A DNA stretch of 28,948 nucleotides from a virus, in the IMG/VR virus record IMGVR_UViG_3300008267_000258, positions 1-28,948 of that record; one strand, 5' to 3'. The notes beneath the pieces are model-generated. The model saw nothing but the letters and a program-made list of their open reading frames with translations, searched no databases and was not told where the DNA came from. How positions within the stretch are numbered: position 1 is the stretch's first letter; every line of letters starts with the position of its first letter. Positions 199-24,369 of the stretch are shown in pieces. Both the position numbers and the translations under genes were made by a program.

Positions 199-597
199 AT
201 GGACAATTTTGACTTGAAACAATTTTTAGTAGAGAATAAAATAACTTCTAATTCTCGTTTAGGTGAAATTAAAGCCATCCCTAAAAATACAGGAATGAAA
301 ATAGATTTATTATCTTTTATTAAACAAAACCAAGATGAAATCGCTAAGGAGATAGGGGCAGTCCGTTTAGAAGATATTGAGATGGATACTTTAAATAATC
401 CATCAGCATTAGCATGGGTTAATATTGATCTTGAGGATGAGGAGGATGAAGTAGAAGGTGGAGGAGAATATATGTATGGAGTATCATTTAGCTATCCTGA
501 GGATGTAGATGATAATTTTAGAGGTGAAAATGGTGATAAACCAAAGGAAATAACAGTAGCAGGAAAAAAAATAATGTATATTAATTATAATATTTAA
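199..597 (+). CDS. Small tagged protein, predicted head-packaged
   Basis: This 132-residue acidic protein has unknown function. Residues 1-23 form the tag MDNFDLKQFLVENK... ending RLGE, shared with the next two genes and with three near 21-23 kb. The tag is followed by IKAIPKNTG (residues 24-32). By analogy with T4 capsid-targeting sequences, cut by the prohead protease after (L/I)xE, I infer cleavage after E23, leaving about 109 residues. The rest has an acidic stretch (LEDEEDEVEGGGE) and a predicted beta-rich end. No catalytic motif is visible. It heads a three-gene group (199-1609) closed by a terminator. The start is fixed by tag conservation. Confidence 0.85.
   Translation: MDNFDLKQFLVENKITSNSRLGEIKAIPKNTGMKIDLLSFIKQNQDEIAKEIGAVRLEDIEMDTLNNPSALAWVNIDLEDEEDEVEGGGEYMYGVSFSYPEDVDDNFRGENGDKPKEITVAGKKIMYINYNI
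265..294 (+). repeat. E-IK-x-x-P-x-N-T-G linker, copy 1
   Basis: It encodes E|IKAIPKNTG directly after the tag (LGE). Hydrophobic-x-E followed by IK is the shared form of this linker in the window, and it is a proposed prohead-protease cleavage site. Confidence 0.7.
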
Positions 598-600
598 TAA
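589..600 (+). promoter_or_regulatory. Variant start-proximal box AATATTTAATAA
   Basis: This is the box with one extra A, 2 bases before ATG 603. It overlaps the end of the preceding gene, so the element is kept even where genes nearly touch. Confidence 0.5.
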
Positions 601-602
601 CT

Positions 603-1256
603 ATGGATAATTTTAATTTAAAACAATTTTTAGTAAAAAACAAATTAACTGAAAATTCTCGTCTAGGTGAAATTAAAGCCGTCCCTGGAAGTACAGGAAC
701 TACAAGATTCGTAGACCTAAAAGTTGGTGATATCATTACTCCTAAAATGTGGGACAAACAAAAATTTATTAATGATGGTTGGTTTGGAACGGAGTTTATG
801 AGGGAGGCGGGTTGGTTTGGAATTGAAGCTTATAATAAAACAATACAAGACTCATATCTTATACAATCTATGTTTTTTGCTGAAGAAGATGAAGACTTTG
901 AAGCTGATTGGCAGGTTAGTTTAAATTCAACAACCACAGGTAAAAGTTTTAATGTAATAGGAGACTCAACACCATTAGAAATCTTAAATAGTCTTTTGAA
1001 AGATGGATATAAAGTTGTTAGTCCTAATACTTTAGAAGAAATTAAAGCCGTTCCTGGAAATACCGGGATAAAAAATGCATTAGATTTTACATTTGAAGAG
1101 GCAAAAGGTAAAATGGTTTTCATAGAAATAGATGAAGATGGGGATGACTCTAAAGAATACATGCAAATTAATACTTTAGATGATTATAACAGCTTAAAAA
1201 ATGTTATTGCTAGTTATTCCAAATCAGGAATTTTAAGTGATTATTATATTAACTAA
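603..1256 (+). CDS. Tagged two-part protein, predicted head-packaged polyprotein
   Basis: This 217-residue protein has unknown function. It starts with the tag MDNFNLKQFLVKNK... RLGE and linker IKAVPGSTG (residues 24-32). A second linker, LEE|IKAVPGNTG, begins after E146. If both sites are cut, the products are residues 24-146 (Trp-rich, with two WFG segments) and 147-217 (acidic, beta-rich). Tag and first linker are nearly identical in DNA to the preceding gene, which suggests tandem duplication followed by replacement of the cargo. No enzyme motif is visible. Cleavage is inferred from the T4 model. Confidence 0.85.
   Translation: MDNFNLKQFLVKNKLTENSRLGEIKAVPGSTGTTRFVDLKVGDIITPKMWDKQKFINDGWFGTEFMREAGWFGIEAYNKTIQDSYLIQSMFFAEEDEDFEADWQVSLNSTTTGKSFNVIGDSTPLEILNSLLKDGYKVVSPNTLEEIKAVPGNTGIKNALDFTFEEAKGKMVFIEIDEDGDDSKEYMQINTLDDYNSLKNVIASYSKSGILSDYYIN
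669..698 (+). repeat. E-IK-x-x-P-x-N-T-G linker, copy 2
   Basis: It encodes E|IKAVPGSTG immediately after the N-terminal tag, with LGE before the proposed cut. Confidence 0.7.
1038..1067 (+). repeat. E-IK-x-x-P-x-N-T-G linker, copy 3
   Basis: It encodes E|IKAVPGNTG in the middle of the 217-residue protein, with LEE before the proposed cut. It divides the protein into two cargo segments. Confidence 0.7.
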
Positions 1257-1263
1257 TTTTTTA

Positions 1264-1274
1264 TATATTTATAA
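1264..1274 (+). promoter_or_regulatory. Start-proximal box TATATTTATAA
   Basis: This one-base variant of AATATTTATAA lies 2 bases before ATG 1277, at the same spacing as the copies before 199, 603, 3395, 10499 and 23834. Confidence 0.55.
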
Positions 1275-1276
1275 CT

Positions 1277-1609
1277 ATGGACAATTTTGACTTAAAGAAA
1301 TTCTTAGTAGAAAATAAAGTAACTACTAACTCTAAAATGATAAACGAAGAAACTACTATACCTAAAGATAAAATAGAAGATTATATCGTCCAGTACAGTT
1401 GGGACGATACTGTAGAAAGACAAGAACGAGGGAATACCCTTTTCCCAGGATTCGGCAAAAAGAAAGCAGAAATGGAAGAACAATTTCCCGGAATTAAAAT
1501 GGCTGCTCACAACTACTGTAAGATGTATAACGGAACAGATGGCAAAATTAAATTTGCTTGTAAAGAAAGCATCTTAAGTTCGGTGAATGCACGTGATTTT
1601 CAAGCTTAA
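1277..1609 (+). CDS. Small tagged protein, predicted head-packaged
   Basis: This 110-residue protein is the third in a row with the MDNFDLKKFLVENK tag. Here the tag ends in MINE (E24) and runs into ETTIPKDK instead of the IK..P..TG linker, so the tag is kept without the linker. The body contains GNTLFPGFGKKKAEMEEQFPGIK and two cysteines in a basic end. The function is unknown. An intrinsic terminator follows about 30 bases after its stop, making it the last gene of its block. Confidence 0.8.
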   Translation: MDNFDLKKFLVENKVTTNSKMINEETTIPKDKIEDYIVQYSWDDTVERQERGNTLFPGFGKKKAEMEEQFPGIKMAAHNYCKMYNGTDGKIKFACKESILSSVNARDFQA

Positions 1610-1637
1610 AAACGAACTGTAAAATAATTAAAATTAA

Positions 1638-3394: not shown

Positions 3395-5896
3395 ATGGAA
3401 TTATCCTTGGAAAATATACTTAATGAAGTAGATAAAATACCTGGTGGATTAGCAAAAGGAAAAACTTTAGACGATATTGCTAAAAAACATAATGTTGAGA
3501 AAGATGAATTAGAGAAACAACTTGAAAAAGGTATTAAAGTTGAAGCCGAACATACTACTGATAAAGCAGCCGCTAAAGAAATAGCTATGGATCATCTGTT
3601 TGAAGATCCTAAATATTACGATAAGTTATCTAAAATTGATGAAGGTACTTGTGGTTATAATGCTGATGTTAAAACAGGTAAAGAATTTAAAACTCCGGGT
3701 GGTATTAAAATGAAAAAAGACCCTTACGGGTTATCTGCTTTTGCTATTGAATTAGTTAAAGAATTTAATAATGATGTAAATGAAGTAGGAGAATTATCAT
3801 CTACCCCTTATGATTATGTTAAACGTTCTGATGATTTAGAATTAGATGGAAATGAATTATTTGGTACTGTAGTATATGATTTTTCGGCTGGGAGTGTTTT
3901 TTATGATGTCATTTTTGAATATGACTATGATAGTGAATTAGGTAAAAACATTGTTAAAGTAGATTTTACTGCTAATGAGTCATATGAAATGACTAATACA
4001 AACGAGCCATATAAAATAATGGCTACTATATTTTCAATTATTAAGAAAGAATTAGCTAACAACATAGTTAAAGACAATCTAGATATTTTACTTTACACTC
4101 CAGCTGAAACTAAAACTAAAGGTGGAGAAGCAGTTAGATTAAGAGGTATTAATCAACGAAACGAATTATATAAAGCGTTTTTTAAGAAAAATATACCTCA
4201 TGTTAAAATGGAGGAAACACCAAATGAAACTCGTTTTTATTTAAAAGAAAATCAATTAAATGAGGCTGTTCGTTGTAAAGCACTCCATAATACACCTCAA
4301 AATGAATTAATACCTTTTATCAAATCACTTACTCAGTTTATGGATAGTGATATTGAAATTCGTCCTTTACCTAAAGTAAAATTTGTTGACGATGAGTCTA
4401 ATGCTTCTAAAGTATTGGGTAAAACAGCATATTATGATCCACAAAATTGCGCGATTACTTTATATATAACCGATAGACACCCTAAAGACATACTCCGTTC
4501 GTTTGCTCATGAGATGATTCATCATATGCAAAATATGCAAGGAAGATTAGGTAATATTAGTACACAAAATGTGAATCAAGATGATAATTTAAAAGGATTA
4601 GAGGAAGAAGCTTACCAGTTAGGAAACATATTACTTCGTAGCTGGGAAAATTCTCAAGACCAACTTGATGAGATTAAACTCCAACCTAAAAATACAGGAG
4701 TAGGTAGTAAATTGAAAGTAAATTTTAAATTAGATCCTTCTTATTTTTTTTACCCTAAAGATATAAAATCAATAAATGATGTTAATGAAAGACACTTTGG
4801 TGGGTGGGTAAGTTCTAAAGATTTACCTAAAATGCAAGGTATGTTATATAGAGATGATTCATCTATGGCTATATTAACTATCATACTTACCGATACAAAC
4901 ACACCATATGAGCATCTTGAGGCTTGGAAAAATAAACTAGATAATCTTAATATTCCATATACAGATAAAATTCTAACTCAGGGACGTAATTTTGGAATTA
5001 CAGGTATAGATGTTAATAAGTATATAATTCTAAATATTGAACAATCTACTAATGAAATTAAAGTCCAACCTAAAAACACAGGAGTGGCTGGTGCTCTAAC
5101 CTCTGAAGAAAAAGAATGGATTGGTAATCAAGTATATACTGTTGATCGCTTTTACTCATCTGATAACACAGATTTAGATTCTGATACTCCATTAGAATAT
5201 GTATTTGTCACTAGAAAAGAGATAGAAGATGAGATAGAAGGCGAATACAGGACCCCTAAAGACTTAGAACTTTTTGATTCTATTCATAGAAAATTAAAAA
5301 ATAAAATTTATACCTTTAATCATGGGCACGATCCTAACATAAAAAAATATCCTGAAGATTATGATCTTCGAGATGCAGTAGTAAGAGCTGAATATAGCAA
5401 TAATAATCCAGAATTAACAATTACTATATCTGATAGACTAGATGGTAGCTACGGCTCAGAATACGGTGCATTTGATAAAGATACAGGAGAATATCTTCAA
5501 TATTCTGATTTAGATAAAATTGGTAAAGTTGATGAAATTAAAGTTCAACCTAAAAAAACGGGGATAAAAGGAAAAATAAATCTTGAATTTTTCCCTAATG
5601 ACCTTAAAATCAAATCATATTCTGATATCTATGATTTTATGAAACTTTCACCTAAGAATTTCCTACCAGGAATAATAAAACTTAAAAATTTCCCATTAAT
5701 GTTTGCTGAAATATTTACAAATAATGAAGGTGAAATTTCAATGGATTTGGAGGCTAATTCAAATTATCCTGAACGATATGATATATGGGTACAAAGATTA
5801 AAAGATTTAGGTATTCCTTTCAAGATGAATCATCCATATATTGAGGATATAAATATAGAAAAGAATTTTAATATAGAAGTTAACCCTATAAGCTAG
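3395..5896 (+). CDS. Multidomain tagged polyprotein with HExxH peptidase motif
   Basis: 833 residues. Tag MELSLENILNE (1-11). Residues 12-78 resemble the small phage domain DUF5661 (KVEAEHTTDKAAAKEIA, then DHLFEDPKYY). Residues about 131-285 form a domain resembling the product of 12900-13505. NQLNE290|A is a gp21-type site. Residues 291-426 hold a zincin-like peptidase: HEMIH at 372-376 with a downstream LEEEAYQLG that could give the third ligand. Linkers IKLQPKNTG, IKVQPKNTG and IKVQPKKTG follow E426, E554 and E714 and delimit three C-terminal modules; the first and third look paralogous. I infer head packaging and processing into several proteins. Peptidase activity is a motif-based inference. 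Confidence 0.85.
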   Translation: MELSLENILNEVDKIPGGLAKGKTLDDIAKKHNVEKDELEKQLEKGIKVEAEHTTDKAAAKEIAMDHLFEDPKYYDKLSKIDEGTCGYNADVKTGKEFKTPGGIKMKKDPYGLSAFAIELVKEFNNDVNEVGELSSTPYDYVKRSDDLELDGNELFGTVVYDFSAGSVFYDVIFEYDYDSELGKNIVKVDFTANESYEMTNTNEPYKIMATIFSIIKKELANNIVKDNLDILLYTPAETKTKGGEAVRLRGINQRNELYKAFFKKNIPHVKMEETPNETRFYLKENQLNEAVRCKALHNTPQNELIPFIKSLTQFMDSDIEIRPLPKVKFVDDESNASKVLGKTAYYDPQNCAITLYITDRHPKDILRSFAHEMIHHMQNMQGRLGNISTQNVNQDDNLKGLEEEAYQLGNILLRSWENSQDQLDEIKLQPKNTGVGSKLKVNFKLDPSYFFYPKDIKSINDVNERHFGGWVSSKDLPKMQGMLYRDDSSMAILTIILTDTNTPYEHLEAWKNKLDNLNIPYTDKILTQGRNFGITGIDVNKYIILNIEQSTNEIKVQPKNTGVAGALTSEEKEWIGNQVYTVDRFYSSDNTDLDSDTPLEYVFVTRKEIEDEIEGEYRTPKDLELFDSIHRKLKNKIYTFNHGHDPNIKKYPEDYDLRDAVVRAEYSNNNPELTITISDRLDGSYGSEYGAFDKDTGEYLQYSDLDKIGKVDEIKVQPKKTGIKGKINLEFFPNDLKIKSYSDIYDFMKLSPKNFLPGIIKLKNFPLMFAEIFTNNEGEISMDLEANSNYPERYDIWVQRLKDLGIPFKMNHPYIEDINIEKNFNIEVNPIS
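4670..4699 (+). repeat. E-IK-x-x-P-x-N-T-G linker, copy 4
   Basis: It encodes E|IKLQPKNTG, with LDE before the proposed cut, at the C-terminal edge of the HExxH domain. Confidence 0.7.
5054..5083 (+). repeat. E-IK-x-x-P-x-N-T-G linker, copy 5
   Basis: It encodes E|IKVQPKNTG. The residues before the proposed cut are TNE, the one copy with a polar residue at the usual hydrophobic position. Confidence 0.65.
5534..5563 (+). repeat. E-IK-x-x-P-x-N-T-G linker, copy 6
   Basis: It encodes E|IKVQPKKTG, with VDE before the proposed cut. It opens the last module of the 833-residue protein. Confidence 0.7.
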
Positions 5897-8130: not shown

Positions 8131-8745
8131 ATGTATGCTGATCCATTAGTTAAAACCGCTTTAGGGCAATTAACTAGAGGTAGAAAAACATACGATACTA
8201 CTAAAGGATATTCTGATTTAACTACTTTGATTGATGATAAAATGCCTCAACAAATTAGAATGTCTTTTAAAAAAGGATTAGAAAATTCTAAACCGGTTCA
8301 AGTAGGTGCTAGAAAAATGTTACCTATTGATTTAAATATTACTAAAAACGAAAGTGGTGATTATATCATTAAAAATCCATACTTAGATAAGCTATCAGAA
8401 ATTAAAGTTAAACCTAGAAATACAGGAACTGTTAAAAGGTATGATGCTACATTTGAAGTAGAAAACGATGATTTAGGAAGCGGTTGGTTTTTGGGTAGTT
8501 TATCAATTGATAAATCACCCCAATTAGACTCTATAGGTTCATTTGTTACTGCCCAATATACTCCTGAAAAAGATATGATGAGAATAGAATTTTATGATGA
8601 AGGGTCAAACGTATTTAAAGATTTTTTAGATAAAAATAAAATTAAATATGACATCTTTTTACCTTCTATGCATTATAGTAGTAATTTTAATTGGTTTGAT
8701 ATAGATAATGTCTCTAAATATTTTAACATTACCATAAAAAAATAA
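8131..8745 (+). CDS. Module-bearing protein, probably the -1 frame continuation of the previous gene
   Basis: 204 residues from ATG 8131, but the frame is open upstream to the A10 run and encodes a plausible extension (KRYIPLTFTFSKDVKDTF). A GGAGGT (8122-8127) lies 3 bases before ATG 8131 and could allow independent initiation. LSE90|IKVKPRNTG is the linker. Residues 100-204 form a beta-rich module that resembles the first and last linker-delimited modules of the 833-residue protein, ending in a similar FNI-type strand. If translated alone it would lack the head-targeting tag that other linker-bearing proteins have. The function is unknown. Confidence 0.7.
   Translation: MYADPLVKTALGQLTRGRKTYDTTKGYSDLTTLIDDKMPQQIRMSFKKGLENSKPVQVGARKMLPIDLNITKNESGDYIIKNPYLDKLSEIKVKPRNTGTVKRYDATFEVENDDLGSGWFLGSLSIDKSPQLDSIGSFVTAQYTPEKDMMRIEFYDEGSNVFKDFLDKNKIKYDIFLPSMHYSSNFNWFDIDNVSKYFNITIKK
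8398..8427 (+). repeat. E-IK-x-x-P-x-N-T-G linker, copy 7
   Basis: It encodes E|IKVKPRNTG, with LSE before the proposed cut. Confidence 0.7.
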
Positions 8746-10498: not shown

Positions 10499-11380
10499 AT
10501 GGAAAAACTCTACCAGCTAATTAAAGAGACACTATCTTACAAATTAGATGATTGTAATTGCAAGAATGATAAAACTACAGCTCCCTTAATTAACGAGTCT
10601 AAAGTTACTGTTGCCCCTATATCTGAAAATCTTAGGTACCACGTTGAACACCAAATTCCTGTTACTGAAAATATTTTTAGAGCAGGAAGTAAATCACACG
10701 TTTCTTTAATTTTAGAAACTCGTATTCTACACGAATTAGGAGTTATAAAACTTTTAGGCAAAGATAAATGGCTGTTTGAAAATACTGATTTAGGTAAATA
10801 CGATGACTTTGAAGGTAAAATGGTACCTTTAGATTTACCTTTAATTATGGAAGAGGAACGTCGACCTAGTAATATACACGATGAAGAAACTTTATTTAGT
10901 AATTTATTTACCTGGGCTGGGGGTAAACCATTTAAAACTATTACCAATGCAAGGGACTTAATGTTTGATTTTAGAAAAGATCCTTTGGTTACTATAGAAG
11001 TTTTAAAAAGTGTAAAAGGCGGCGACGATATACCTCAAGCATATCTTACATCTTTACAATATTATGCTAAACAGTATGGTAAAACTCTTAATGAATCTGA
11101 TGATAAAAAGAAAACACCTCCAATTGGTAAACCAAAACGTGGTGGTTCTAAAAAATTCTACGTTTATGTAAGAGATAAAGGTAAAGTTAAGAAAATATCA
11201 TTTGGTGATACTACTGGTTTATCTGCTAAAATTAATAATTCAAAGGCAAGAGCTGCTTTTTCTAAAAGACATGATTGCCCAAATAAAAAAGATAGAACAA
11301 AAGCATCATATTGGTCATGTCGTTTACCAAGATATGCTAAATTATTAGGTTTAAAATCATCATTTAGCGGTTTCTGGTAA
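10499..11380 (+). CDS. Tagged two-domain protein with basic C-terminal domain
   Basis: 293 residues. Tag MEKLYQLIKE (E10), with further gp21-like sites at LINE33 and LNE199. Residues about 45-125 (PVTENIFRAGSKSH, then LGKYDDFEGKMVPLDLP) resemble a short domain I associate with marine phage and virus proteins. After LNE199|S comes a Lys-rich domain (GGSKKFYVYVRDKGKVKKISFG, then CPNKKDRTKASYWSCRLPRYA) with two conserved cysteines, likely nucleic-acid-associated. The proposed cut lies exactly between the two domains. It overlaps the next gene by one base (TAATG). The function is unknown; packaging is inferred. Confidence 0.85.
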   Translation: MEKLYQLIKETLSYKLDDCNCKNDKTTAPLINESKVTVAPISENLRYHVEHQIPVTENIFRAGSKSHVSLILETRILHELGVIKLLGKDKWLFENTDLGKYDDFEGKMVPLDLPLIMEEERRPSNIHDEETLFSNLFTWAGGKPFKTITNARDLMFDFRKDPLVTIEVLKSVKGGDDIPQAYLTSLQYYAKQYGKTLNESDDKKKTPPIGKPKRGGSKKFYVYVRDKGKVKKISFGDTTGLSAKINNSKARAAFSKRHDCPNKKDRTKASYWSCRLPRYAKLLGLKSSFSGFW

Positions 11381-12903: not shown

Positions 12904-13505
12904 TAAAATTAATAGAAATATTAAATGAAATAGCTGATTCACCATATTCACTGTATTCTCCTAGTTATCATAAAGAAGGTAATTTTAGTAATTACGTTGA
13001 TTATGAGTTTATAACTGATACTGGAAAAGAATATTATGTTCGATTTAGTAGTAAATGGAACGGCCGAAGTAAACAACAAGATCAAAAATATAACTGGGGA
13101 ACTGAATTAACTTTTTTTCCTAAAGCATTTAAAACTACTCCTAAAACTGAAGAAGGTGGTGAAAATTTTGGAAAAATTTTAGCAACTGTAGGTAAAGCTC
13201 TTAAAGAATATATTGCTACATACAAACCAGAGTACGTATTTTGGAAAGGAATTAAAGGTCATGAAGAACAAGTTACTGGAGATTCTACTAAAAGACAAAG
13301 AATTTATAACATGGTTATGGATAAAATGTCTAAAGGAATAACAGGATATACTCCTATAAAAGGAGATAAACTTTCTGGCATTATAACTAACAGTGAAATT
13401 CCCGTACCCGGGGCAAATAAAATATTTGCATACCCTGAAGAACCTTCATTTTATGATGAGGCAGAAGCTAAAGCTAAAGTATCAAGATTTAATTTACAAC
13501 GATAA
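12900..13505 (+). CDS. Tagged small protein of a domain shared with the 833-residue polyprotein
   Basis: 201 residues. Tag MIKLIEILNE (E10), almost identical to that of the preceding gene. The body alternates beta strands (YEFITDTGKEYYVRFSSKW) with a helix (FGKILATVGKALKEYIATY) and a KRQRIYNMVMDKM segment. The same order of elements occurs at about residues 131-285 of the 833-residue protein, so the two are probably paralogues. No catalytic residues are evident. It overlaps both neighbours (ATGA and TAATG). The function is unknown; packaging is inferred from the tag. Confidence 0.85.
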   Translation: MIKLIEILNEIADSPYSLYSPSYHKEGNFSNYVDYEFITDTGKEYYVRFSSKWNGRSKQQDQKYNWGTELTFFPKAFKTTPKTEEGGENFGKILATVGKALKEYIATYKPEYVFWKGIKGHEEQVTGDSTKRQRIYNMVMDKMSKGITGYTPIKGDKLSGIITNSEIPVPGANKIFAYPEEPSFYDEAEAKAKVSRFNLQR

Positions 13506-14311
13506 TGATTAAATTCTCAGACATATTAAATGAAGCTTTAAATCAACAACAGATTGTTGATGTAGCTAATGAATTTATAAATTCTAAAAATTATAATCCT
13601 AATCATGACTGTAAACGTTCTACTTTTGAATTTATAAAATGGGTTAAAAAGAATAAAGGATTTGAACCTAGTGTCTTATTATTAGCTCCTCCTAAAGATA
13701 CTAAAAAATTTCCTGGTAAAAGCGGAGATGGAGATTCACATATATTTGCTATTATAAATGGATTTGGAATTGACTTTACAGCTAACCAATTCCCCGGAGT
13801 ATCTGAACCTTTAAAAATTACACCTGAAACTCAAATACCTTTAGAATATAAAAAGATAGGTGGTTATTATACATTATATCCCGATTGGTTTGAAAATGGT
13901 AAAACATCATTAAAAACTAAGTTTAATAATTTACCACAATGGTTTCGTGATGGATTTGAAAAAGAAGGATTTAAACCTGAATTAAACGAAGCTGACCCAA
14001 AAGTAGGCACTGGCAAAAAACCTAAAGGATCATCTCGTCGTTTATACACAGACGAAAATCCTAAAGATACAGTTAGTATTAAATTTAAAACTGTTCAAGA
14101 TATTAAAGATACATTATCTAAAACTTCATTTAAATCTAAACCCCATGCTCGCCAATCTCAAATTATAAATTTGATTCATCAACGAGTAAGAGTAGCTTAC
14201 GGTAAAGCAAAAGATCCTGAAGTAAAAGCAAGATTAAAACGTGCTTTAGATTATATTGAGGGACGTAAAGAAGCATCTAAAAGAAAAACCCAACAACTTA
14301 AAAATGATTAA
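13505..14311 (+). CDS. Tagged Cys-His-Asp hydrolase candidate with basic C-terminal domain
   Basis: 268 residues. Tag MIKFSDILNE (E10). Residues 11-155 contain DC36KRSTFEF, DSH79IFAI and IDFTANQF (D90), an order and context reminiscent of papain-like, transglutaminase or NlpC-type folds; a thiol peptidase or amidase is possible. PELNE162|A is a clear internal gp21-type site. Residues 163-268 form a Lys/Arg-rich helical domain (GSSRRLYTDENPKDTVSIKF, then HARQSQIINLI) probably binding nucleic acid. Cleavage would separate the two parts after packaging. It overlaps the next gene by 8 bases. Enzyme class is a low-certainty inference. Confidence 0.85.
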   Translation: MIKFSDILNEALNQQQIVDVANEFINSKNYNPNHDCKRSTFEFIKWVKKNKGFEPSVLLLAPPKDTKKFPGKSGDGDSHIFAIINGFGIDFTANQFPGVSEPLKITPETQIPLEYKKIGGYYTLYPDWFENGKTSLKTKFNNLPQWFRDGFEKEGFKPELNEADPKVGTGKKPKGSSRRLYTDENPKDTVSIKFKTVQDIKDTLSKTSFKSKPHARQSQIINLIHQRVRVAYGKAKDPEVKARLKRALDYIEGRKEASKRKTQQLKND

Positions 14312-14814: not shown

Positions 14815-16812
14815 ATGGTTAAGTTCCATTCATTATTAAAAGAGTTTATATTATCTGAGTTTTCTGATAAGATACTCAAACAGATGCTTGATCTGTACAA
14901 AAAACAAAAACCTAACTTAGATGATGAACAAATTCTTTACTATGTAAAGCGATTTGACCAAATTAAATCAGCATTAAAGAAAAAGGTTGAAGATAAAGAC
15001 CCAACTGTATTAGCGTTATTACCTAGAGATTTAAAATCTGATGATTCATTAAAAAAGAATTTTTATTTAGAAATTACTAGATATAAAAAATTTGATGAAT
15101 TAGAAAAATTAATTGATGGTGCTTTTTCTAAAGCTCAAGCTAAAAAGGAAAAAGAAGAATTAGTTAACAGTGCTGAAGCCGATGCTGATAAAATATATGA
15201 TAAAGATAATTTAGAAATATATAGAGGTGATGCTGAGCACAAATGTATTAAATATGGTAAAAACCAATACTATTCTTGGTGCATAGCTCGTACCCAAGGA
15301 AGTATGTACTCTGGATATCGCTTCCAGGGTGTAGGTGGAAAAAGCAGAATGTTCTATTTTGTTTTTGATAGAACACGCCCTGATAGAAAAGACGTAGGTG
15401 GTTTTGAAGATCCTTACCATGCTGTAGTAATACATGCTATGGAAAATGGGGAATACACTGTTACTGATGCTACTAATAGAGGAGACAAACCTGCTAAAAC
15501 CTGGGATGATGTAATAAAATTATTACCTGCTGAGTTAGGTAGTAAATTAAAAGGATTAGAATCTATATTTAAATATATTCCTCCAAGTAGTGAGGAAATT
15601 GCTCAAGCGGCAATGAAAGGTAAAAAATTATCTTTTGAACAATTTGCTGAATTATCATATGCTGATAAAAAAACATATGTTCAAGCAAATGCTGGTAACA
15701 GAAATATAATTGATTCTAATATATTTAAATCATTAGATTTAGATTTAAAAAATGAATGTATTAACTTTGGTAGAATATGTACTTTTGATGAATTAAAATC
15801 AAATGTTGGTCTTTTAAAAAGATATCCTGATTTTAGATTTACTAGATACCCTAAAGAACCATTACCATATCCTTTTATTCCTTATTTAAAAGATGATTTA
15901 CAACAAAAATATCTAGCGGAATTTGAAGACGAGTATTTAACTTTTGATGAAATTGAAAAATATTTCTCTGATACTACTGTAAAGAAGTATATTGATAAAC
16001 AAATTAAAAAGTTTGGATTTTTACCTCCCGAGGCTGAAAAATTCATGAGTTCATCTCAAAAACAAGTATACAACTTATATAGTATATCTTTTAAAGACAT
16101 CAGTTACAGTACTAATCCAGATATTGAAAATAGTACAATGGCTCCCTTACGTTTAGTAAGTGTTGCCCCTATTTCAGCACAAACATATAATGATTTATCT
16201 ACTCAAGAACGTAAATTATATCTTGAATTAGTTGATAAATTATTTGAACAAGGTAACGGTGTGGAAAGACATAGTGATTTCTTCATGGGTGTACCTCAAA
16301 TGATACAAATTAATAATAAAGTATTTATGCTTTGCCCTACATCTACTAACTCAGATGTATTCTCATTAATAGATGAAAATGGTAAAGTAGTTAAAAATAA
16401 CATCTATACTTTAGAAATTTATAAAAATGGACGTGAAATAGAATATGATTCTACACCTGCTGGACCCATATATAAAATTTCAGGACAAAGAACATGGTAT
16501 TTACCTCAAACCGAATATGATAGATTAAAACTATTAGATGAGGATGGGGACGAAATTAGATTTGATATGAACAACTTAGAAGAAAATAACGAATTAGTTA
16601 AAAAATTCCAAAAATTAGCAGGTATACAGACAGAAAATGAGGTTAAACCAGCTGTTGCTCCTCCAACAACTAAACCTAAACCTGGAACTAAAAATCCTTT
16701 AATTCCTCCTCCATCAGCACCTAAAAAAAGACCAGCTAAAGCTCTTAGTGAGGAAGATACACAAGAAATGATTGGAAAAATAATCCAACGTTTTAAAAAA
16801 CTACGCCAATGA
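14815..16812 (+). CDS. Large tagged protein, predicted head-packaged or structural
   Basis: 665 residues. N-terminus MVKFHSLLKE (E10), with a second site at ILSE15. Residues about 130-230 form a recognisable segment, YSWCIARTQGS followed by MFYFVFDRTRP and HAVVIHAMENGEYTVTDATNRGD, which I have seen as a recurring phage domain without assigned function. The middle contains repeated helical units, each with a P-x-x-x-x-Y or E-x-F pattern. Residues about 595-610 (LVKKFQKLAGI) are followed by a Pro/Lys-rich linker and a short basic end. It overlaps the next gene by 4 bases, suggesting equal expression of this pair. The function is unknown. Confidence 0.85.
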   Translation: MVKFHSLLKEFILSEFSDKILKQMLDLYKKQKPNLDDEQILYYVKRFDQIKSALKKKVEDKDPTVLALLPRDLKSDDSLKKNFYLEITRYKKFDELEKLIDGAFSKAQAKKEKEELVNSAEADADKIYDKDNLEIYRGDAEHKCIKYGKNQYYSWCIARTQGSMYSGYRFQGVGGKSRMFYFVFDRTRPDRKDVGGFEDPYHAVVIHAMENGEYTVTDATNRGDKPAKTWDDVIKLLPAELGSKLKGLESIFKYIPPSSEEIAQAAMKGKKLSFEQFAELSYADKKTYVQANAGNRNIIDSNIFKSLDLDLKNECINFGRICTFDELKSNVGLLKRYPDFRFTRYPKEPLPYPFIPYLKDDLQQKYLAEFEDEYLTFDEIEKYFSDTTVKKYIDKQIKKFGFLPPEAEKFMSSSQKQVYNLYSISFKDISYSTNPDIENSTMAPLRLVSVAPISAQTYNDLSTQERKLYLELVDKLFEQGNGVERHSDFFMGVPQMIQINNKVFMLCPTSTNSDVFSLIDENGKVVKNNIYTLEIYKNGREIEYDSTPAGPIYKISGQRTWYLPQTEYDRLKLLDEDGDEIRFDMNNLEENNELVKKFQKLAGIQTENEVKPAVAPPTTKPKPGTKNPLIPPPSAPKKRPAKALSEEDTQEMIGKIIQRFKKLRQ

Positions 16813-18977
16813 AGTTAACACAATTAGCTAAACAAGTAATTGAGGAAAAAATCCAACGTTTGAATGAGGTAGATTACGAGGAAATATTTTCTCCTGAAAC
16901 TATGTCTTTATTAAAAAAACAATCTAAAGACGAATTAGTAAAACTAGGAAAAAATTTAAGACAAATGATGAGTACAGCTAGTACATTACTTCCTGAACTT
17001 ATTGAAGCTGAACAACCTCATATTGATTTACTTGAGGAAATAGCTAAAGAAATTGTTACCCAAGCTTACCCTATCATTAAATATTCAAAAATTAAAATTA
17101 ATGCTAGTATAGGTAAAGGTGAACTTCCCCAAGGAATCCCAGATGAAGAAAAGGAAGAAGAGGAAAAAGAACAACCTGAGTTACCTCAACCTACTTTAAC
17201 TGGTGAGAAAAAACGCCGTATCATAAACGGAATTACTCAAGGTGCCTCTATCCGTGGCACTTTTGCATTCCTACTATTTAGAGAATATCTAGATGATCTA
17301 GGTGATGATATGATTAACCGTTACAACGAACTAATGAAATCTGTATTTGGTATTTATGATGATGAAAATGCTATTGCTCAGATGTTAGCACTATTAGCTC
17401 AAGGTCAAAAATCACAAGGGGGCGAATCTGAAGCTTACTATGATGAAGGAACAGAGACTCTTGTAATTAATGCTACAGCTATCTGTTTTCCAATGTTAGT
17501 TCACGAAATTGTAAAAGGATTATACGAGATACTATCATTACACGGATTTGGATCTGATGCTGAACAAAATAAAAAGATTGTAAGTAAAGTAGATAAATTA
17601 TCTAATGAACCCAATGATATACGTTTTGGTAAAATTATGTTTGATGCTATTAATAAAGTATATATTAAAAGTGAAATTAATGATACTAGAGTAAGAGAGC
17701 TTTTTTTTCCTGAAATGTATAAAATAGATGATGAAACTGAATTTGTTAATTTTGTTGCAAATGCACTTGAAAATAAACTAACATCTACTCAAGAAAAATG
17801 GGCAATGGATACTATGAGGGATATTGAGCGTGATTTAAAAGCTGATGATGCTAAAATTAACAAAGATATCCCTAATGATGAAGGTGATGAAGACGTATTT
17901 ACTGAAATTAAAGTTCAACCTAAAAAGACAGGATTAAATAATAAAATTAAAAAATTAGGTATAACTTTAGAAAAATATAACCTTAGTGGGAATGAAATAG
18001 GTAGCAAATATCCTTGGGTTTATGCCCAAGAAAAATTAAGTCCTACTACTAAAAAGAATGCTGAATATTTTTTTAACAACCTAAATATAACACCTACAAA
18101 AATATCTATTGGTTTGGTATATAGAGGATCATTATCTGATGAAGAATTTAATAATTTGTCTGATTTAGAAAAAATAAATAAATTAGAGACTGAACCAAAA
18201 GCAAAATCATTTTACATTGAAGGAAACTATAAAGGTACTCCTATTATTATAGCTAGAAAAGAAACACGTTCCCCAGCAGCCGGACAAACTTATTTAGTTT
18301 CCCCTTATGCTAAATTAAAATTTAATAATATTAAAGACCTACCAGCTAATGAAATTTTAGCTGCTTTAAAAATACCTAATGATGGGAATATTGATGAAAT
18401 TAAAGCTCAACCAGTTAATAGATTAATTAAGCCTACCAAAAAAGAAATCATAATTAATAAACCATATATAGACATGGATACTTCTTTTATAGAAGACTAT
18501 ATTTTAGATTATGGTGAAATTAGATTTGATATTGATTTTTTTAAATCTTCCCCGGAAATTCTTGTGAGCGGAGATGAAGATGCAATACGCGACTCCGAAT
18601 ATATTGATTTTATTTTAGATGGAAACTATAAGCTTTATTTTAATGAAGATAAAAAAGAAATTGATTATATTCTAACATTAAATGATCCTTTAAATATAAA
18701 AGATTATGCTCGAGATAGAGCAGAAATGTTATCTGATAATCCTGAAGACATAGACTTCCTTACAGAAGAAATTATGTTAGCTATAGAAACTATCCAAGAT
18801 AATATTCCTAAATACCTTGCTGCTAAAAATATATTAAAAGATAAGTTTACTATTATTAGTAATGATGAATTTAGTGTTATATTAACTTCTGATAGTCATT
18901 CATTACTTTATACTATGATAGAAAAACAAGATGGTTATTTTAATAAAAATGGAGAAATAGTAATTTATACTACATAA
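16809..18977 (+). CDS. Large tagged protein with two appended linker modules
   Basis: 722 residues. Tag-like start MKLTQLAKQVIEEKIQRLNE (E20). Residues 21-366 appear to be a core virion-type protein: an acidic Pro/Glu linker at 115-135, GASIRGTFAFLLFREYLDDLG, then a metallopeptidase-like but incomplete MLVHEIVKGLYEILSLHGF. Linkers FTE366|IKVQPKKTG and IDE530|IKAQPVNR add two C-terminal modules of about 164 and 192 residues. The first has GTPIIIARKETRS and AAGQTYLVSP; neither has a recognised motif. The modules may be cargo carried by the core and released by cleavage (inference). A terminator follows about 70 bases downstream. Confidence 0.85.
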   Translation: MKLTQLAKQVIEEKIQRLNEVDYEEIFSPETMSLLKKQSKDELVKLGKNLRQMMSTASTLLPELIEAEQPHIDLLEEIAKEIVTQAYPIIKYSKIKINASIGKGELPQGIPDEEKEEEEKEQPELPQPTLTGEKKRRIINGITQGASIRGTFAFLLFREYLDDLGDDMINRYNELMKSVFGIYDDENAIAQMLALLAQGQKSQGGESEAYYDEGTETLVINATAICFPMLVHEIVKGLYEILSLHGFGSDAEQNKKIVSKVDKLSNEPNDIRFGKIMFDAINKVYIKSEINDTRVRELFFPEMYKIDDETEFVNFVANALENKLTSTQEKWAMDTMRDIERDLKADDAKINKDIPNDEGDEDVFTEIKVQPKKTGLNNKIKKLGITLEKYNLSGNEIGSKYPWVYAQEKLSPTTKKNAEYFFNNLNITPTKISIGLVYRGSLSDEEFNNLSDLEKINKLETEPKAKSFYIEGNYKGTPIIIARKETRSPAAGQTYLVSPYAKLKFNNIKDLPANEILAALKIPNDGNIDEIKAQPVNRLIKPTKKEIIINKPYIDMDTSFIEDYILDYGEIRFDIDFFKSSPEILVSGDEDAIRDSEYIDFILDGNYKLYFNEDKKEIDYILTLNDPLNIKDYARDRAEMLSDNPEDIDFLTEEIMLAIETIQDNIPKYLAAKNILKDKFTIISNDEFSVILTSDSHSLLYTMIEKQDGYFNKNGEIVIYTT
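17904..17933 (+). repeat. E-IK-x-x-P-x-N-T-G linker, copy 8
   Basis: It encodes E|IKVQPKKTG, with FTE before the proposed cut, where the core of the 722-residue protein meets its first appended module. Confidence 0.7.
18396..18422 (+). repeat. Degenerate linker, copy 9
   Basis: It encodes E|IKAQPVNR, with IDE before the proposed cut. The TG end is lost, but the E-IK-x-x-P part is kept. Confidence 0.55.
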
Positions 18978-20771: not shown

Positions 20772-21752
20772 ATGGATAACTTTGATTTACACAAGTATTT
20801 AAGAAATAACCCTTTATTGACTGAGTCAGTTGATAATAAACTAACCAAAAAGAAAGTAAAAGAAATGGTTAGAGAGATGGCTAAAGGAACTATAAATACT
20901 CCTGATGAAACTAACTTAAATAAAGCTATTGGAAATGCTCCTAACGTAGTAGCAAAATTATCTTTTATTAATCAACCTACGGAATTAGATGGCGCTTTTA
21001 AAGTTGCATTAGACTTTTCAGAACTTAAAAATGTTTCTAAATCTACAGTAATAGCTGCCCTTAAACGAGCTATGGATGAGTTATCTCCTGATTCTCAAGC
21101 TATTAATACTGTTGGTGATCCTATTGGACCTAATTCTAAAAACTTTGCAGGCCCTACACAAAGAGCTGATGGAACCTATGATGTAAGCAGTATGAAACCT
21201 ATTCAAACTATGAAAGAAGGAGAAATCAACGAAATGGCTCGTATTGCTAAACCTTCTAAATTAGCTGATGATTGGGAAGAAAAAATGGCTAACTTACCTG
21301 ACCGCTTTAAGAAAAGTACTCGTTTCGATCGTGTAATCAAGTATTTCCAAAAATATAAAGATAAAATTGGTCAACCTATTAACCCTAATACTGATCCTCT
21401 TACAGCAAAAGCAATTGATTTTTATGGTACTTTAGCCCACATTGCAGACGAGGAATTCCAATCATCAGATACAGCTAGTGCTGCACCTATCGTTTCTGCT
21501 TTAAAAGATGCTGGTGTTGTAGTTTCAGGTGATTTCGTAACCGAACCAGCTAAATACAGTAAAGAACCATCAGTACCTGGTGCTAAAGGAAGACCTAAAA
21601 CCGAAACCGGTTACTTCCAAAATGCTATGGCTAAGTTTAAAGAAGGTAACTATGAATTTTCTCCTGAAGAGCAAAACGCTTTAGAAAATATGGTTAAAGC
21701 ATTACAAGCTGCCTTGACTAAAAAACCTGAGCCAAAAGCTAAAAAGAAGTAA
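20772..21752 (+). CDS. Tagged Ala/Lys-rich protein, predicted head-packaged
   Basis: 326 residues. It starts with MDNFDLHKYLRNNPLLTES, a diverged form of the MDNFDLKQF tag. A possible site is LTE18|S. A stronger internal site is EINE154|M, dividing the protein into an N-terminal helical part and a C-terminal Ala/Lys-rich part that ends in KKPEPKAKKK. The middle contains LPDRFKKSTRFDRVIKYFQK. The composition suggests a DNA-associated internal head protein. The enzymatic role is unknown. The next gene starts 4 bases downstream with the same type of tag. Confidence 0.82.
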   Translation: MDNFDLHKYLRNNPLLTESVDNKLTKKKVKEMVREMAKGTINTPDETNLNKAIGNAPNVVAKLSFINQPTELDGAFKVALDFSELKNVSKSTVIAALKRAMDELSPDSQAINTVGDPIGPNSKNFAGPTQRADGTYDVSSMKPIQTMKEGEINEMARIAKPSKLADDWEEKMANLPDRFKKSTRFDRVIKYFQKYKDKIGQPINPNTDPLTAKAIDFYGTLAHIADEEFQSSDTASAAPIVSALKDAGVVVSGDFVTEPAKYSKEPSVPGAKGRPKTETGYFQNAMAKFKEGNYEFSPEEQNALENMVKALQAALTKKPEPKAKKK

Positions 21753-21756: not shown

Positions 21757-21831
21757 ATGGATTCATTTAACTTAAAGCAATTTCTGGTTGAGAACAAACT
21801 TACTGAAAACAGCAAGTTAAATGAAATAAAA
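21757..21831 (+). repeat. Tag cassette, duplicated copy A
   Basis: The first 23 codons plus the linker start. It shares uninterrupted identical stretches of 18 and 24 bases with 22563-22640. The nucleotide identity includes silent positions, indicating recent duplication or gene conversion of the tag. Confidence 0.7.
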
Positions 21832-22566
21832 GAACCAGATTTAATATTACTAGAAGCTGTTAGAGTTTCTAATCCTAAAGACCCGTTGTGGAATACTTAT
21901 CGCATACATGCTAATGATTTAGATATGAATGGATACACAGTAAGTATTCTCCCACAATCACAAGTGTTAGGTTCACTTATTTCTAAAATTATTGATCTTA
22001 AAAAACGTGGTGAGGTTGTCCCAACAACAGATACTAGCAATGATAGTTACATGTACAGATATATTTTAAAGTTATCTGATGAATCCGCAAACAACAACCA
22101 AGCTATACAAAAATTATTTACCGTTACTAAATTAACACCCAGCCCTGTCCCTAAAGCAGAAGCAGAAAAAATAAAACGCGATACAGCTAAAGCTGACATA
22201 AATTCATTTAAAAACAAAGGAGCATCAACAGCGGCTAAATCTACTTCTCAAAGTGCTCCTACTATGCCAGGTAAAGTTAAAGTAAAAGACTTACGTAGTT
22301 TAGCAACTGAACTATTTTCTGATGAAAATTTACAATTCTATGAAGAAGATGGTACTATAATGTTTGATCAATATGCTTTCCAATTATTAATGGCTTCTAG
22401 TTTACCCGACTCACTTAAAGCTGACTTCGACTTAGTTAACCGTGATAAAAATAATACTAAAGATCCATTAACTGGAGAAAAAATTCCATATGGGAATAAA
22501 ATAATTCCACCAACTTCTAAAATATATAAAACTTTATTTACATTTAAAGACGCTTTTAAACCATGA
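21757..22566 (+). CDS. Tagged protein, predicted head-packaged
   Basis: 269 residues. The tag MDSFNLKQFLVENK... KLNE (E23) is followed by IKEPD, a truncated linker without P-x-N-T-G. The body has a beta-rich region at 30-110, a Ser/Ala/Lys-rich linker at about 130-170 and a C-terminal region (KVKVKDLRSLATELF, then DPLTGEKIPYGNKI). No catalytic motif is evident. The tag DNA is almost identical to that of the next gene. The stop overlaps the next start by 4 bases (ATGATAG). Confidence 0.82.
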   Translation: MDSFNLKQFLVENKLTENSKLNEIKEPDLILLEAVRVSNPKDPLWNTYRIHANDLDMNGYTVSILPQSQVLGSLISKIIDLKKRGEVVPTTDTSNDSYMYRYILKLSDESANNNQAIQKLFTVTKLTPSPVPKAEAEKIKRDTAKADINSFKNKGASTAAKSTSQSAPTMPGKVKVKDLRSLATELFSDENLQFYEEDGTIMFDQYAFQLLMASSLPDSLKADFDLVNRDKNNTKDPLTGEKIPYGNKIIPPTSKIYKTLFTFKDAFKP

Positions 22567-22640
22567 TAGATAACTTTGATTTAAAGCAATTTCTGGTTAA
22601 AAACAAACTTACTGAAAACAGCAAGCTAGATGAAATTAAA
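22563..22640 (+). repeat. Tag cassette, duplicated copy B
   Basis: The partner of the copy at 21757-21831, identical in the codons for LKQFLV and for NKLTENSK. It encodes LDE|IK at its end. Confidence 0.7.
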
Positions 22641-22952
22641 GCTACTCCCAAAAATACAGGACTTGTAACCCCTAAACAACTAGCTACAGATTTAGTTAAC
22701 CAAACTCAACCTGATTTTGAAGAAGATGAATATATTGTTGTTTCAACCCCAATAAGTGAAGTAAATCCTAAATTTGTTAAATACCTAAAATCATTACCCA
22801 CCGATAACGATTATCCTTATCAAAGTGGTATAGCGACTTTTGATATTGTTTACAATGGCATTGAGTGGAAGATTATGTTTTATTTAATAGATGCTACGGT
22901 AAATAATGAAATTTATGATGAAGATATGATTATGTTTGAATTATCCTACTAA
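22563..22952 (+). CDS. Small tagged protein, predicted head-packaged
   Basis: 129 residues. The tag MIDNFDLKQFLVKNK... KLDE (E24) is followed by linker IKATPKNTG. The rest is acidic and beta-rich (EEDEYIVVSTPISEV, then GIATFDIVYNGIEWKIMFYL) with no enzyme motif. The stop TAA 22950-22952 is followed in the same frame by ATA ATG AAA and a further linker-module ORF, so the gene may once have been longer or may be read through. Confidence 0.82.
   Translation: MIDNFDLKQFLVKNKLTENSKLDEIKATPKNTGLVTPKQLATDLVNQTQPDFEEDEYIVVSTPISEVNPKFVKYLKSLPTDNDYPYQSGIATFDIVYNGIEWKIMFYLIDATVNNEIYDEDMIMFELSY
22632..22661 (+). repeat. E-IK-x-x-P-x-N-T-G linker, copy 11
   Basis: It encodes E|IKATPKNTG after LDE, directly behind the tag. 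Confidence 0.7.
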
Positions 22953-22955
22953 ATA

Positions 22956-22982
22956 ATGAAACTTCAACCAGCTAATACAGGT
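22956..22982 (+). repeat. Linker, copy 12 (M for I)
   Basis: It encodes MKLQPANTG, closest to copy 4 (IKLQPKNTG). The usual glutamate codon before it is replaced by the TAA-ATA junction. Confidence 0.6.
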
Positions 22983-23258
22983 GTCGGTAGTCAACTAAAT
23001 AAACAAGTTGACGTTGTATCTCGTGAAGAACAAGATGAGGATAGTTTTGAATACGTTGATGTTGAAAAATTAAAAAAAGAATTAAAATATAAATATTTTA
23101 CTGATTTATTTGATTCACCTAAAACATTTAATGATGGTTTACTTAGTTATCTTGGTGATATTGTAGATTTTGATGAGCCTGATAGCTATAAAAATATGAC
23201 TCTAAGAGAATTAATAAAAGATTTTAGGTTATGGTTTTTTAACTTTACTACAGATTAG
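22956..23258 (+). CDS. Linker-module ORF without its own tag
   Basis: 100 residues. It begins MKLQPANTGVGSQL, which is the linker with M in place of I, so this start lies inside a linker rather than at a normal gene start. It lies in the same frame as the preceding gene, separated only by TAA and ATA. The body is acidic and helical (YVDVEKLKKELKYKYF). It is probably the last module of a former or read-through polyprotein; independent translation from ATG 22956 is possible but no box or ribosome site precedes it. An intrinsic terminator overlaps its stop. Confidence 0.65.
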   Translation: MKLQPANTGVGSQLNKQVDVVSREEQDEDSFEYVDVEKLKKELKYKYFTDLFDSPKTFNDGLLSYLGDIVDFDEPDSYKNMTLRELIKDFRLWFFNFTTD

Positions 23259-23277
23259 GAAAACTAATCTTTCTTTT
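23253..23277 (+). terminator. Intrinsic terminator
   Basis: GATTAG (23253-23258), loop GAAAA and CTAATC (23264-23269) form a 6-bp stem followed by TTTCTTTT. The stem includes the stop codon of the preceding ORF. Confidence 0.75.
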
Positions 23278-23284
23278 GTATATT
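23274..23284 (+). promoter_or_regulatory. TTTTGTATATT box before kinase
   Basis: Identical to the box before the primase, and likewise fused to the T-run of a terminator. It ends 7 bases before ATG 23292. Confidence 0.4.
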
Positions 23285-23291
23285 ATAGATT

Positions 23292-23822
23292 ATGAAAATA
23301 GGTTTTTGTGGAACAATGAGTGTTGGAAAATCAACATTAGTAAATGCATTAAGTGAATTACCACAATTTGAAGGTTATCATTTTGCAACTGAACGTTCAA
23401 AATACTTACGTGATTTAGGTATTCCGTTGAATACGGATTCAACATTAAAAGGTCAAACAATATTTTTAGCTGAACGTTGTACTGAATTAATTTACGATAA
23501 AATGATTACTGATAGAACAGTAATCGATGTTATGGCATTTACATTATGTGCTTCTTCTATTTTCTATAATGATAAACACAAATTTGAAAACTATGCTAAA
23601 TTACTCATTTCAGAATATGATTACATATTTTATGTATCACCTGAAGGTGTTGAAATAGAAGATAATGGTGTTCGTGAAACAAATTCTGAATATAGACAAA
23701 CAATTGATAAAACAATTAACTATATTATTAATGCATATAAACCACTAATTAACAAATTTACCATCATTTCAGGTACAACAGATGAACGTGTACAAAAAGT
23801 ATTAGAAACAATAAAGTTCTAA
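23292..23822 (+). CDS. P-loop nucleotide kinase-like protein
   Basis: 176 residues. Walker A GTMSVGKST (G7, G12, K13, S14) at the N-terminus. TDRTVIDVMAFT supplies the acidic/DR motif of NadR- or thymidylate-kinase-like enzymes, and YDYIFYVSPEG is the following strand. The family phosphorylates nucleosides, nucleotides or nicotinamide riboside; the substrate cannot be read from sequence. It has no tag. Its own TTTTGTATATT box and upstream terminator suggest separate transcription from the packaged-protein genes. Confidence 0.85.
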   Translation: MKIGFCGTMSVGKSTLVNALSELPQFEGYHFATERSKYLRDLGIPLNTDSTLKGQTIFLAERCTELIYDKMITDRTVIDVMAFTLCASSIFYNDKHKFENYAKLLISEYDYIFYVSPEGVEIEDNGVRETNSEYRQTIDKTINYIINAYKPLINKFTIISGTTDERVQKVLETIKF

Positions 23823-23831
23823 TATTTATAA
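23821..23831 (+). promoter_or_regulatory. AATATTTATAA start-proximal box
   Basis: An exact copy 2 bases before ATG 23834, overlapping the kinase stop codon. Confidence 0.6.
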
Positions 23832-23833
23832 GT

Positions 23834-24190
23834 ATGAAATTATCTGATTTACGTAAATTGATCATTGAATCTGTCAATGAAGAAGTATTAGAGGAAGTAA
23901 AACCAGTAGATGAAGTTGGTTCATTCTACGTTGTAGAAAAACCTAAAAAAGGTTCAACCAAAGCAGACATTGTAAAAGAAATGACTGTGTTTGATAACAT
24001 TGACCCTAAAAGTGTATTAGGTGTTTATGCAAAAAGCCCTGCCGCTAACAAGCGAGCAGCTGAAGCTATTAAAGAAATGGCCCAAAGCATTAAAGACTTA
24101 GAATCATCTATGAATGAATTCCGTGATGCTCAAAAAGGCATTAATGAAAAGAAGAAAAGAGCTGCTGATATTATTAAAAAATTAAGATAA
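23834..24190 (+). CDS. Small tagged coiled-coil protein
   Basis: 118 residues. It starts MKLSDLRKLIIES, a tag-like amphipathic helix with I-I-E (E12) and further V-N-E and L-E-E sites within 22 residues. The C-terminal half (about 70-118) is a charged, probably coiled-coil helix ending in KKKRAADIIKKLR. It could be an internal head protein, a scaffold component or a small terminase-like protein, given its place two genes before the lysis-type pair and terminase; no motif decides. It overlaps the next gene by one base. Confidence 0.78.
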   Translation: MKLSDLRKLIIESVNEEVLEEVKPVDEVGSFYVVEKPKKGSTKADIVKEMTVFDNIDPKSVLGVYAKSPAANKRAAEAIKEMAQSIKDLESSMNEFRDAQKGINEKKKRAADIIKKLR

Positions 24191-24369
24191 TGACACTCAA
24201 AGAATTAAGAGAAATCATCAAAAAAGCTCTCAAGGAAAGCACTATTGACGTGCCCGGGGACCCTAATAAATTAACACCCCAACAAAAATCAGCAGAAATA
24301 TCTAAAGCTAGACGAACCACACGTAAACCTAAATTAGGCACAGCTGACGATCCTGTAGATTTTATTTAA
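24190..24369 (+). CDS. Very small tagged basic protein (59 residues)
   Basis: ATG 24190 overlaps the preceding stop (TAATG) and the frame ends at TAA 24367-24369. It starts MTLKELREIIKKALKES, an amphipathic tag with LKE16. The remainder is basic and Pro-rich (KARRTTRKPKLG), ending TADDPVDFI. The one-base overlap, the tag and normal codon use support a real gene. The function is unknown; it may be a small packaged DNA-associated peptide. Confidence 0.7.
   Translation: MTLKELREIIKKALKESTIDVPGDPNKLTPQQKSAEISKARRTTRKPKLGTADDPVDFI

Follow-up and report, generated by a model that had tools for sequence, protein, structure and literature searches.

The subject of this analysis is a set of sixteen genes between positions 199 and 24,369 of the IMG/VR virus record IMGVR_UViG_3300008267_000258, whose products begin with a short tag resembling the capsid-targeting sequence of phage T4. 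The whole record of 28,948 bases was analyzed and is called the window here. It is classed as a linear virus record and is probably a fragment. The window belongs to a T4-like phage related to Flavobacterium phage immuto; its terminase showed 60% identity to the immuto terminase, and the host is therefore probably a member of the Bacteroidota. The nearest relative found was contig IMGVR_UViG_3300034103_001788 (G009; 70,303 bases), which was 92-96% identical (about 94%) over most of the window and carries the portal as well as a protease gene. G001, G009 and the L-numbers (L011, L047 and so on) are labels for related contigs or loci, and genes are named by their start positions.

In T4, Alt and the internal proteins I-III carry an N-terminal capsid-targeting sequence that is cut by gp21. 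A first-pass annotation of the window had proposed sixteen genes with such a tag. All sixteen are open frames at the places it gave, and all (16/16) contain [LIVMF]xE with the Glu at residue 9-26. This hydrophobic-x-Glu form is written hxE below, its residues being P3, P2 and P1. The tags were sorted into three types: type A, MDNFDLKQFLVENKLTENSRLxE (genes 199, 603, 1277, 20772, 21757 and 22566); type B, MIKLIDILNE (genes 3395, 10499, 11380, 12900, 13505, 14304 and 14815); and type C, MKLSDLRKLIIE-like (genes 16809, 23834 and 24190). The starts of 14304 and 22566 were picked by us, with further in-frame starts lying just upstream. The tagged genes (aa, amino acids) are as follows.

199..597, + strand: type A tag (P1 Glu 23), junction and 109-aa module
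603..1256, + strand: type A tag (Glu 23), 123-aa module, internal junction (Glu 146) and 71-aa module
1277..1609, + strand: type A tag (Glu 24) and body
3395..5896, + strand: type B-like tag MELSLENILNE (Glu 11), DUF5661, HExxH segment (by eye) and three junction-delimited modules (128, 160 and 119 aa)
10499..11380, + strand: N-terminus MEKLYQLIKE, which fits the T4 rule (type B)
11380..12903, + strand: type B tag MIKLIDILNE; ParB-like and sub-threshold ART-PolyVal matches in a segment that G009 lacks
12900..13505, + strand: type B tag MIKLIEILNE
13505..14311, + strand: type B tag MIKFSDILNE; homology to G009 stops at 13533, the last tag codon
14304..14543, + strand: type B tag MIKFSDILNE, start set at the second ATG
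14815..16812, + strand: type B tag MVKFHSLLKE
16809..18977, + strand: type C-like tag, carrier, then two junction-delimited modules (164 and 192 aa)
20772..21752, + strand: diverged type A tag (LLTE, Glu 18); the body has two type C relatives
21757..22566, + strand: type A tag (Glu 23); long-range homology stops at 21831, just past the tag
22566..22952, + strand: type A tag (Glu 23), junction and 105-aa module
23834..24190, + strand: type C tag
24190..24369, + strand: type C tag, 59-aa protein

In shuffled sequences [LIVMF]xE was reached on average in 6.7 of the sixteen named genes, and none of 3000 shuffles reached 16. Since these genes had been chosen for the hxE feature, the fair test takes all 34 genes of the window: 21 had an N-terminal [LIVMF]xE against 11.0 expected, a number reached by 0/3000 shuffles. 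The other 18 genes gave five against 4.3 expected (reached by 1346/3000 shuffles). Types A and B are well above chance. Primase, metallophosphoesterase, FAD (flavin adenine dinucleotide) enzyme, terminase and portal had no site, as the annotation had held; the nuclease (2589) and the kinase (23292) are likewise without the tag, though each contains one isolated site.

Passages of PMC9026906 on mutational work with T4 IPIII assign targeting to positions 4 and 7 and processing to positions 8 and 10. The rule taken from these positions (hydrophobic at 4, 7 and 8; Glu at 10) was fitted exactly by six of the 34 window genes, with a shuffle mean of 0.09 and no case of six in 20000 shuffles. Type B is the tag type in the window that fits these positions. 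As a control, two T4 pieces with 104 open reading frames (ORFs) were scored; the rule picked three, namely ipII, ipIII and gp24, the last annotated as gp21-cleaved. The annotated start of Alt fits the rule by eye and was missed through the start choice of the script. A terminase search of viral contigs gave at least 600 matching rows. Around 80 related terminases the rule fitted 21/486 ORFs upstream (shuffle mean 1.5, maximum 6), one of which, in L047, seems to be a chance frame lying within another gene, and 1/283 ORFs downstream, read as the start of the protease. The type A tag occurred in 12/486 ORFs upstream and 1/283 downstream in the same loci.

Viral contigs were scanned with a DNA pattern built on the type A core, and the following numbers hold among the matches listed. 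The pattern includes the earlier candidate site (Glu or Lys at residue 12) and stops before the tag-end site. At least 109 new loci carried the core, giving at least 116 proteins distinct in their first 50 residues; both loci and proteins are from phages related to one another and do not count as independent samples. Two proteins of the window's own species were left out and 114 were scored. An hxE followed within 11 residues of the core in 112/114 (shuffle mean 25.6, maximum 40), and at either of two fixed distances in 109/114 (shuffle mean 6.0, maximum 16). When these 109 tags were aligned on the tag-end Glu, P3 was L, I or V, P2 was free and no conservation was seen past P1, P1 and P3 being fixed by the way the tags were chosen. 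The bodies behind the tags (114 long enough) fell into 56 clusters at E<1e-3. The annotation's claim of a T4-like capsid-targeting tag finds good comparative support in both types, type B by its fit to the IPIII positions and the long type A tag by its hxE end with unrelated bodies after it.

Over 105 pairs of the 15 type A tags found in the window, in G009 and in three related contigs, the synonymous difference (pS) was 0.655 and the nonsynonymous difference (pN) 0.15; the five type A tags of the window alone gave 0.83 and 0.19. With pS 0.655 and pN 0.15, the idea that these tags are merely recent duplications was dropped. One protein, in L248, had a second full type A tag mid-protein. In bacterial genome contigs the type A query matched one contig, which also has a phage terminase. 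L202 and L221 each contain four type A tagged genes close by one another. In immuto, of which 150 kb were covered, type A tags stand at 1803, 103806, 117631, 118632 and 125241.

The annotation had pointed to a gp21-type protease just right of the window, and a Peptidase_S77 gene (the gp21 family) was indeed found right of the portal in G009. The untagged landmarks at this end of the window are:

25061..26653, + strand: large terminase
26673..28544, + strand: portal; in G009 the protease lies to its right, past the end of the window

Peptidase_S77 was present in 17/21 distinct related records, which combine a set of 8/8, a set of 4/8 (three repeat the first set) and a set of 8/8 (one is the IMG/VR copy of immuto). 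In the first eight relatives the gene lies, by coordinates, 4-5 kb beyond the terminase match. The gene was missing from four records, all of them fragments of the window's species; they break off at window positions 25701, 6777, 23375 and 26989, short of the place of the protease. The major capsid proteins of the clade had V-x-E in 19/19 alignment rows, near FLTE of T4 gp23, in an alignment in which the L011 row repeats G001 (two rows, one protein) and the T4 row is off by one column. The tags might instead be a docking peptide shared for some other phage process, with the hxE end incidental, and direct virion data were not found in the literature searched. This is very improbable, as conservation ends at the Glu with a free P2, the S77 gene co-occurs and the T4 positions match.

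Tags and bodies were exchanged between phages. One conserved body carried type A in 2/14 and type B in 12/14 sequences, the body of 20772 carried type A in 3/5 and type C in 2/5, and a third body, by our reading, carries B or C. In the first of these families (9 of 14 aligned) the two types align, YLAE with ILSE, and type A therefore reads as the T4 pattern shifted by two, plus an extension and a second site. Homology between the window and G009 had 24 breakpoints, of which 19 lay at most 20 bases from a tag or junction (the internal junctions are described below), in an analysis where matches below 88% identity were dropped, which creates some of the ends. Tags and junctions with a 20-base margin make up 7.2% of the window, and untagged gene starts caught 1/24 breakpoints. 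Without two tag-only matches the count was 15/20, and with neighbours merged 11/16 places (hand count). The breakpoints away from tags were at 1622, 8734, 11760, 12690 and 23258. The segment 11760-12690 in 11380, with the ParB-like and ART-like matches, is absent from the 204-aa G009 version; its ParB-like part recurs in a 931-aa protein of L166/L167.

It is unlikely that the tagged proteins are parts of the prohead core or scaffold, cut and lost after assembly, and not injected effectors. Type-C and type-A-like N-termini do occur on small head-cluster genes near the protease, and sections of PMC9026906 describe some T4 core proteins as cut to fragments and mostly removed. The bodies, however, are highly diverse and change between phages that are about 94% identical, unlike core parts.

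The sixteen genes of the annotation's inventory stood, but internal repeats of the cut-site context in 603, 3395, 8131 and 16809 had been missed, as had the untagged module gene 22956. Here the motif hxE/IKxxPxNTG (the slash marking the putative cut) links modules of 67-192 aa into longer proteins, one 10-aa remnant aside. These polyprotein-like junctions are the least expected part of the locus. The junctions and the untagged genes that belong to them are:

1038..1067, + strand: internal junction E/IKAVPGNTG in 603; homology breakpoint at 1031
4670..4699, + strand: internal junction E/IKLQPKNTG in 3395
5054..5083, + strand: internal junction E/IKVQPKNTG in 3395, Thr at P3 (off-consensus)
5534..5563, + strand: internal junction E/IKVQPKKTG in 3395
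8131..8745, + strand: untagged ORF containing an internal junction and a 114-aa module; together with 6860 it corresponds to a 528-aa G009 ORF ending just past the junction
8398..8427, + strand: internal junction E/IKVKPRNTG in 8131; DNA homology to G009 ends at 8428
17904..17933, + strand: internal junction E/IKVQPKKTG in 16809
18396..18425, + strand: degenerate internal junction E/IKAQPVNRL in 16809; homology shifts between two G009 genes at 18395/18412
22956..23258, + strand: untagged module gene, starting directly at MKLQPANTG; same start in G009 and L119

The strict motif IKxxPxNTG occurred at 24 places in the window and G009, counting orthologous places in both, with Glu before it at 21, Asp at one and the protein start at two. 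Looser copies were seen in 3395 and 16809. A first junction listing restricted the residues at P3 and the strict listing did not. When junctions sharing one upstream side were counted once, P3 was one of LIVMF at 9/11 distinct internal junctions (background 0.294, p 5e-4), and at 6/7 in the window alone (p 0.003). G009, L108 and L109 had the same junction in a gene of the head cluster that lies between the portal and the protease. On the 4832-base contig L115 the portal and the junction-bearing head gene were present and no protease was found. A search of viral contigs for relatives of the 3395 modules gave only four near-identical contigs. Single-sequence structure prediction for residues 381-833 of 3395 had a mean predicted local distance difference test (pLDDT) score of 33.9 and was uninformative on module folds.

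The modules moved between contexts. Window 199 shares its module with G009 21164, where it comes second; the second of the two modules in window 603 is the only one behind the tag of G009 21928; and the 192-aa module that ends 16809 is attached in G009 to another protein, of 334 aa. G009 37200 ends in a paralogue of one 3395 module, and G009 27457 ends directly past the junction where window 8131 continues with a module. In another reading the tags act as proposed and the junctions are flexible linkers and recombination points that stay uncut, the multi-module proteins being packaged and injected whole, as is supposed for polyvalent proteins. Homology breakpoints cluster at the junctions, codon constraint there is only moderate (pS 0.445, pN 0.222), and parts of PMC5512222 make large multidomain, probably injected proteins a known kind. 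We consider this reading possible but the less favoured one, as Glu or Asp precedes the strict motif in 22/22 non-start places and P3 is mostly hydrophobic, neither of which a linker needs, and as the same module occurs both behind a tag alone and within a chain. Alternatively, the HExxH segment of 3395 (HEMIHH, by eye) could be a peptidase that cuts the junctions itself, as portions of PMC5512222 propose for peptidase domains of polyvalent proteins. This is the most improbable of the explanations weighed: junctions also occur in 603, 16809 and 8131, where no HExxH was seen by eye, and the junction site matches the tag-end site.

The bodies gave few clues to function. Pfam searches at E up to 0.01 with 52 body representatives (of 56 listed clusters) returned ten families, each in one member and most of them weak, and PHROGs at the same threshold gave eight matches, likewise single-member and mostly weak. 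Among 14 of the 16 tagged window genes only DUF5661 in 3395 exceeded its Pfam cut-off; ART-PolyVal in 11380 scored 26.2 bits against a cut-off of 31.2. In the window PHROGs matched 10499, 11380, 12900 and 22563 (24190 lay outside the scan), mostly with function-unknown entries. PADLOC found nothing in the 10 window proteins submitted, the ART-like segment had just two weak matches among PDB sequences (E 0.29 and 0.76), and searches of phage collections with 14815, 3395, 16809 and 11380 gave short or partial matches only. As almost no cargo has a known family, the host-takeover role that the annotation gave to the tagged proteins rests on T4 precedent. The three internal proteins of T4 (Ip1-3) each block a different type IV restriction system according to sections of PMC12373910, and by this analogy an anti-host function of the cargo is somewhat favoured.

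The tag signals, their conservation and position, the protease gene of the relatives and the exchange of modules and bodies are probably best explained by T4-type capsid targeting and S77 cleavage, enlarged into an exchangeable cargo system that partly perhaps uses polyproteins. The hydrophobic N-terminal segment would dock each protein to the prohead core, and capsid targeting is very probably the role of the tags. The gp21-family (S77) protease would then cut after hydrophobic-x-Glu and set the mature protein free in the head; cleavage at the tag ends is highly likely. DNA would be packed around the freed cargo, which would exit with the DNA and affect the new host, probably by opposing its defences. 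Injection of the tagged proteins seems likely to us. Tags and bodies would recombine as cassettes at the tag end, and small modules (67-192 aa) would be strung through hxE/IKxxPxNTG behind one tag, or on larger carriers and one head-cluster protein. The same protease could cut these junctions, for which we put the chances as even. It is conceivable, at a little under even chances, that the injected proteins are made as polyproteins, in which a single tag would take a string of small anti-host modules into the prohead for the protease to dice at hxE/IKxxPxNTG into pieces roughly as large as T4 internal proteins; junctions and tags would then be recombination points at which a population of phages reloads its cargo one module at a time.

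Several observations weigh against this explanation, besides the relatedness of the tagged loci. The window itself ends before the place of the protease, the literature search found no virion proteomics of a tagged phage, and hardly any cargo body belongs to a known family. The T4 rule fitted 4/217 ORFs in 150 kb of immuto and 1/233 ORFs in G001, and therefore it is not a feature of every related genome. In an annotated phage collection (50,697 records) the type A query matched only the four immuto records, so that its distribution among cultured phages is narrow. In one G009 tag P1 is Asp, a change that inhibits processing in T4 IPIII according to a passage of PMC9026906. Type C is the weak part of the tag evidence. 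A type-C-like helix without the Glu occurs on 8748, the family of which (window 8748-9329) is widespread, some members having hxE and many lacking it, and a type-C N-terminus in G009 adjoins genes read as baseplate genes. For the junctions, P3 was off-consensus at two (one Thr, one Tyr), pN/pS was about 0.5 against 0.23 for the tag, a moderate constraint, and conservation of the junctions at the DNA level might reflect use as recombination sites. Only near relatives were found to have the polyprotein modules. The module gene 22956 has no tag in the window and likewise none in G009 and L119; its product may be unpackaged, carried by a partner or have a role in the infected cell.

Compared with the system of Alt, the internal proteins I-III and gp21 in T4, the window shares the key N-terminal positions, the hxE form of the cut site, variable bodies and a gp21-family protease in relatives. 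It differs in having more tagged genes per stretch, internal junctions, and a type A tag that is longer and includes a second site. Hypervariable sets of internal proteins are described for T-even phages (Repoila et al. 1994, as cited in portions of PMC12373910 and PMC3012670), and passages of the same two papers report shared targeting signals on changing bodies there. The window is alike in the shared signal and the changing bodies, and differs in its phage group, the larger set and the chained modules. Polyvalent proteins of phages and conjugative elements are multidomain and probably injected, and an analogy with polyproteins is drawn for them in sections of PMC5512222; the proteins of the window resemble them in being multidomain and probably injected, and 11380 has an ART-like match that scores below the Pfam cut-off. 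In the parts of that source drawn on here their release is ascribed to embedded peptidases, whereas the sites in the window look like prohead-protease sites. Prohead protease cuts propeptides of head proteins in Salmonella phage SPN3US, some at several sites (sections of PMC10052503). As described in those sections the propeptide is diced there, while the pieces between the sites of the window look like cargo. A literature search, with bioRxiv preprints outside it, found no report of the tag, its spread, the exchange of cassettes at the tag end or the junction-delimited chains.

If this explanation is true, the tag would offer a way to find proteins that phages inject into hosts, and a sequence handle for orphan phage proteins that enter host cells first. 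This handle would apply to a group well represented in IMG/VR (at least 600 terminase rows and at least 109 new tag loci). As almost no known families occur among the bodies, these would be a new place to look for candidate anti-defence proteins. For a head protease, the processing of polyprotein cargo in the prohead would be a new use.

At 6860-8745 the two ORFs 6860 and 8131 match a single 528-aa ORF of G009, the frame being broken between them in the window. An internal type-C-like stretch in 6860 was sought as an N-terminal tag elsewhere, and no informative homologue was found. The untagged gene at 6493-6858 matched phrog_858, a starvation-inducible regulator (3.1e-25), and a similar gene was seen by eye in G001. 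A dehydrogenase-like gene (phrog_12409) at 19103-20497 is odd for a phage late region, and its DNA is kept upstream of the terminase in many relatives. In the related locus L290 (3870-6623), on a contig binned as an uncultured bacterium, a short terminase frame (276 aa) precedes two ORFs of 247 and 387 aa, which by eye resemble intein or homing genes. Before the terminase of the window, at 24389-25064, lie two overlapping small genes with one membrane segment and one signal-peptide-like start (by eye), possibly a spanin-like pair.

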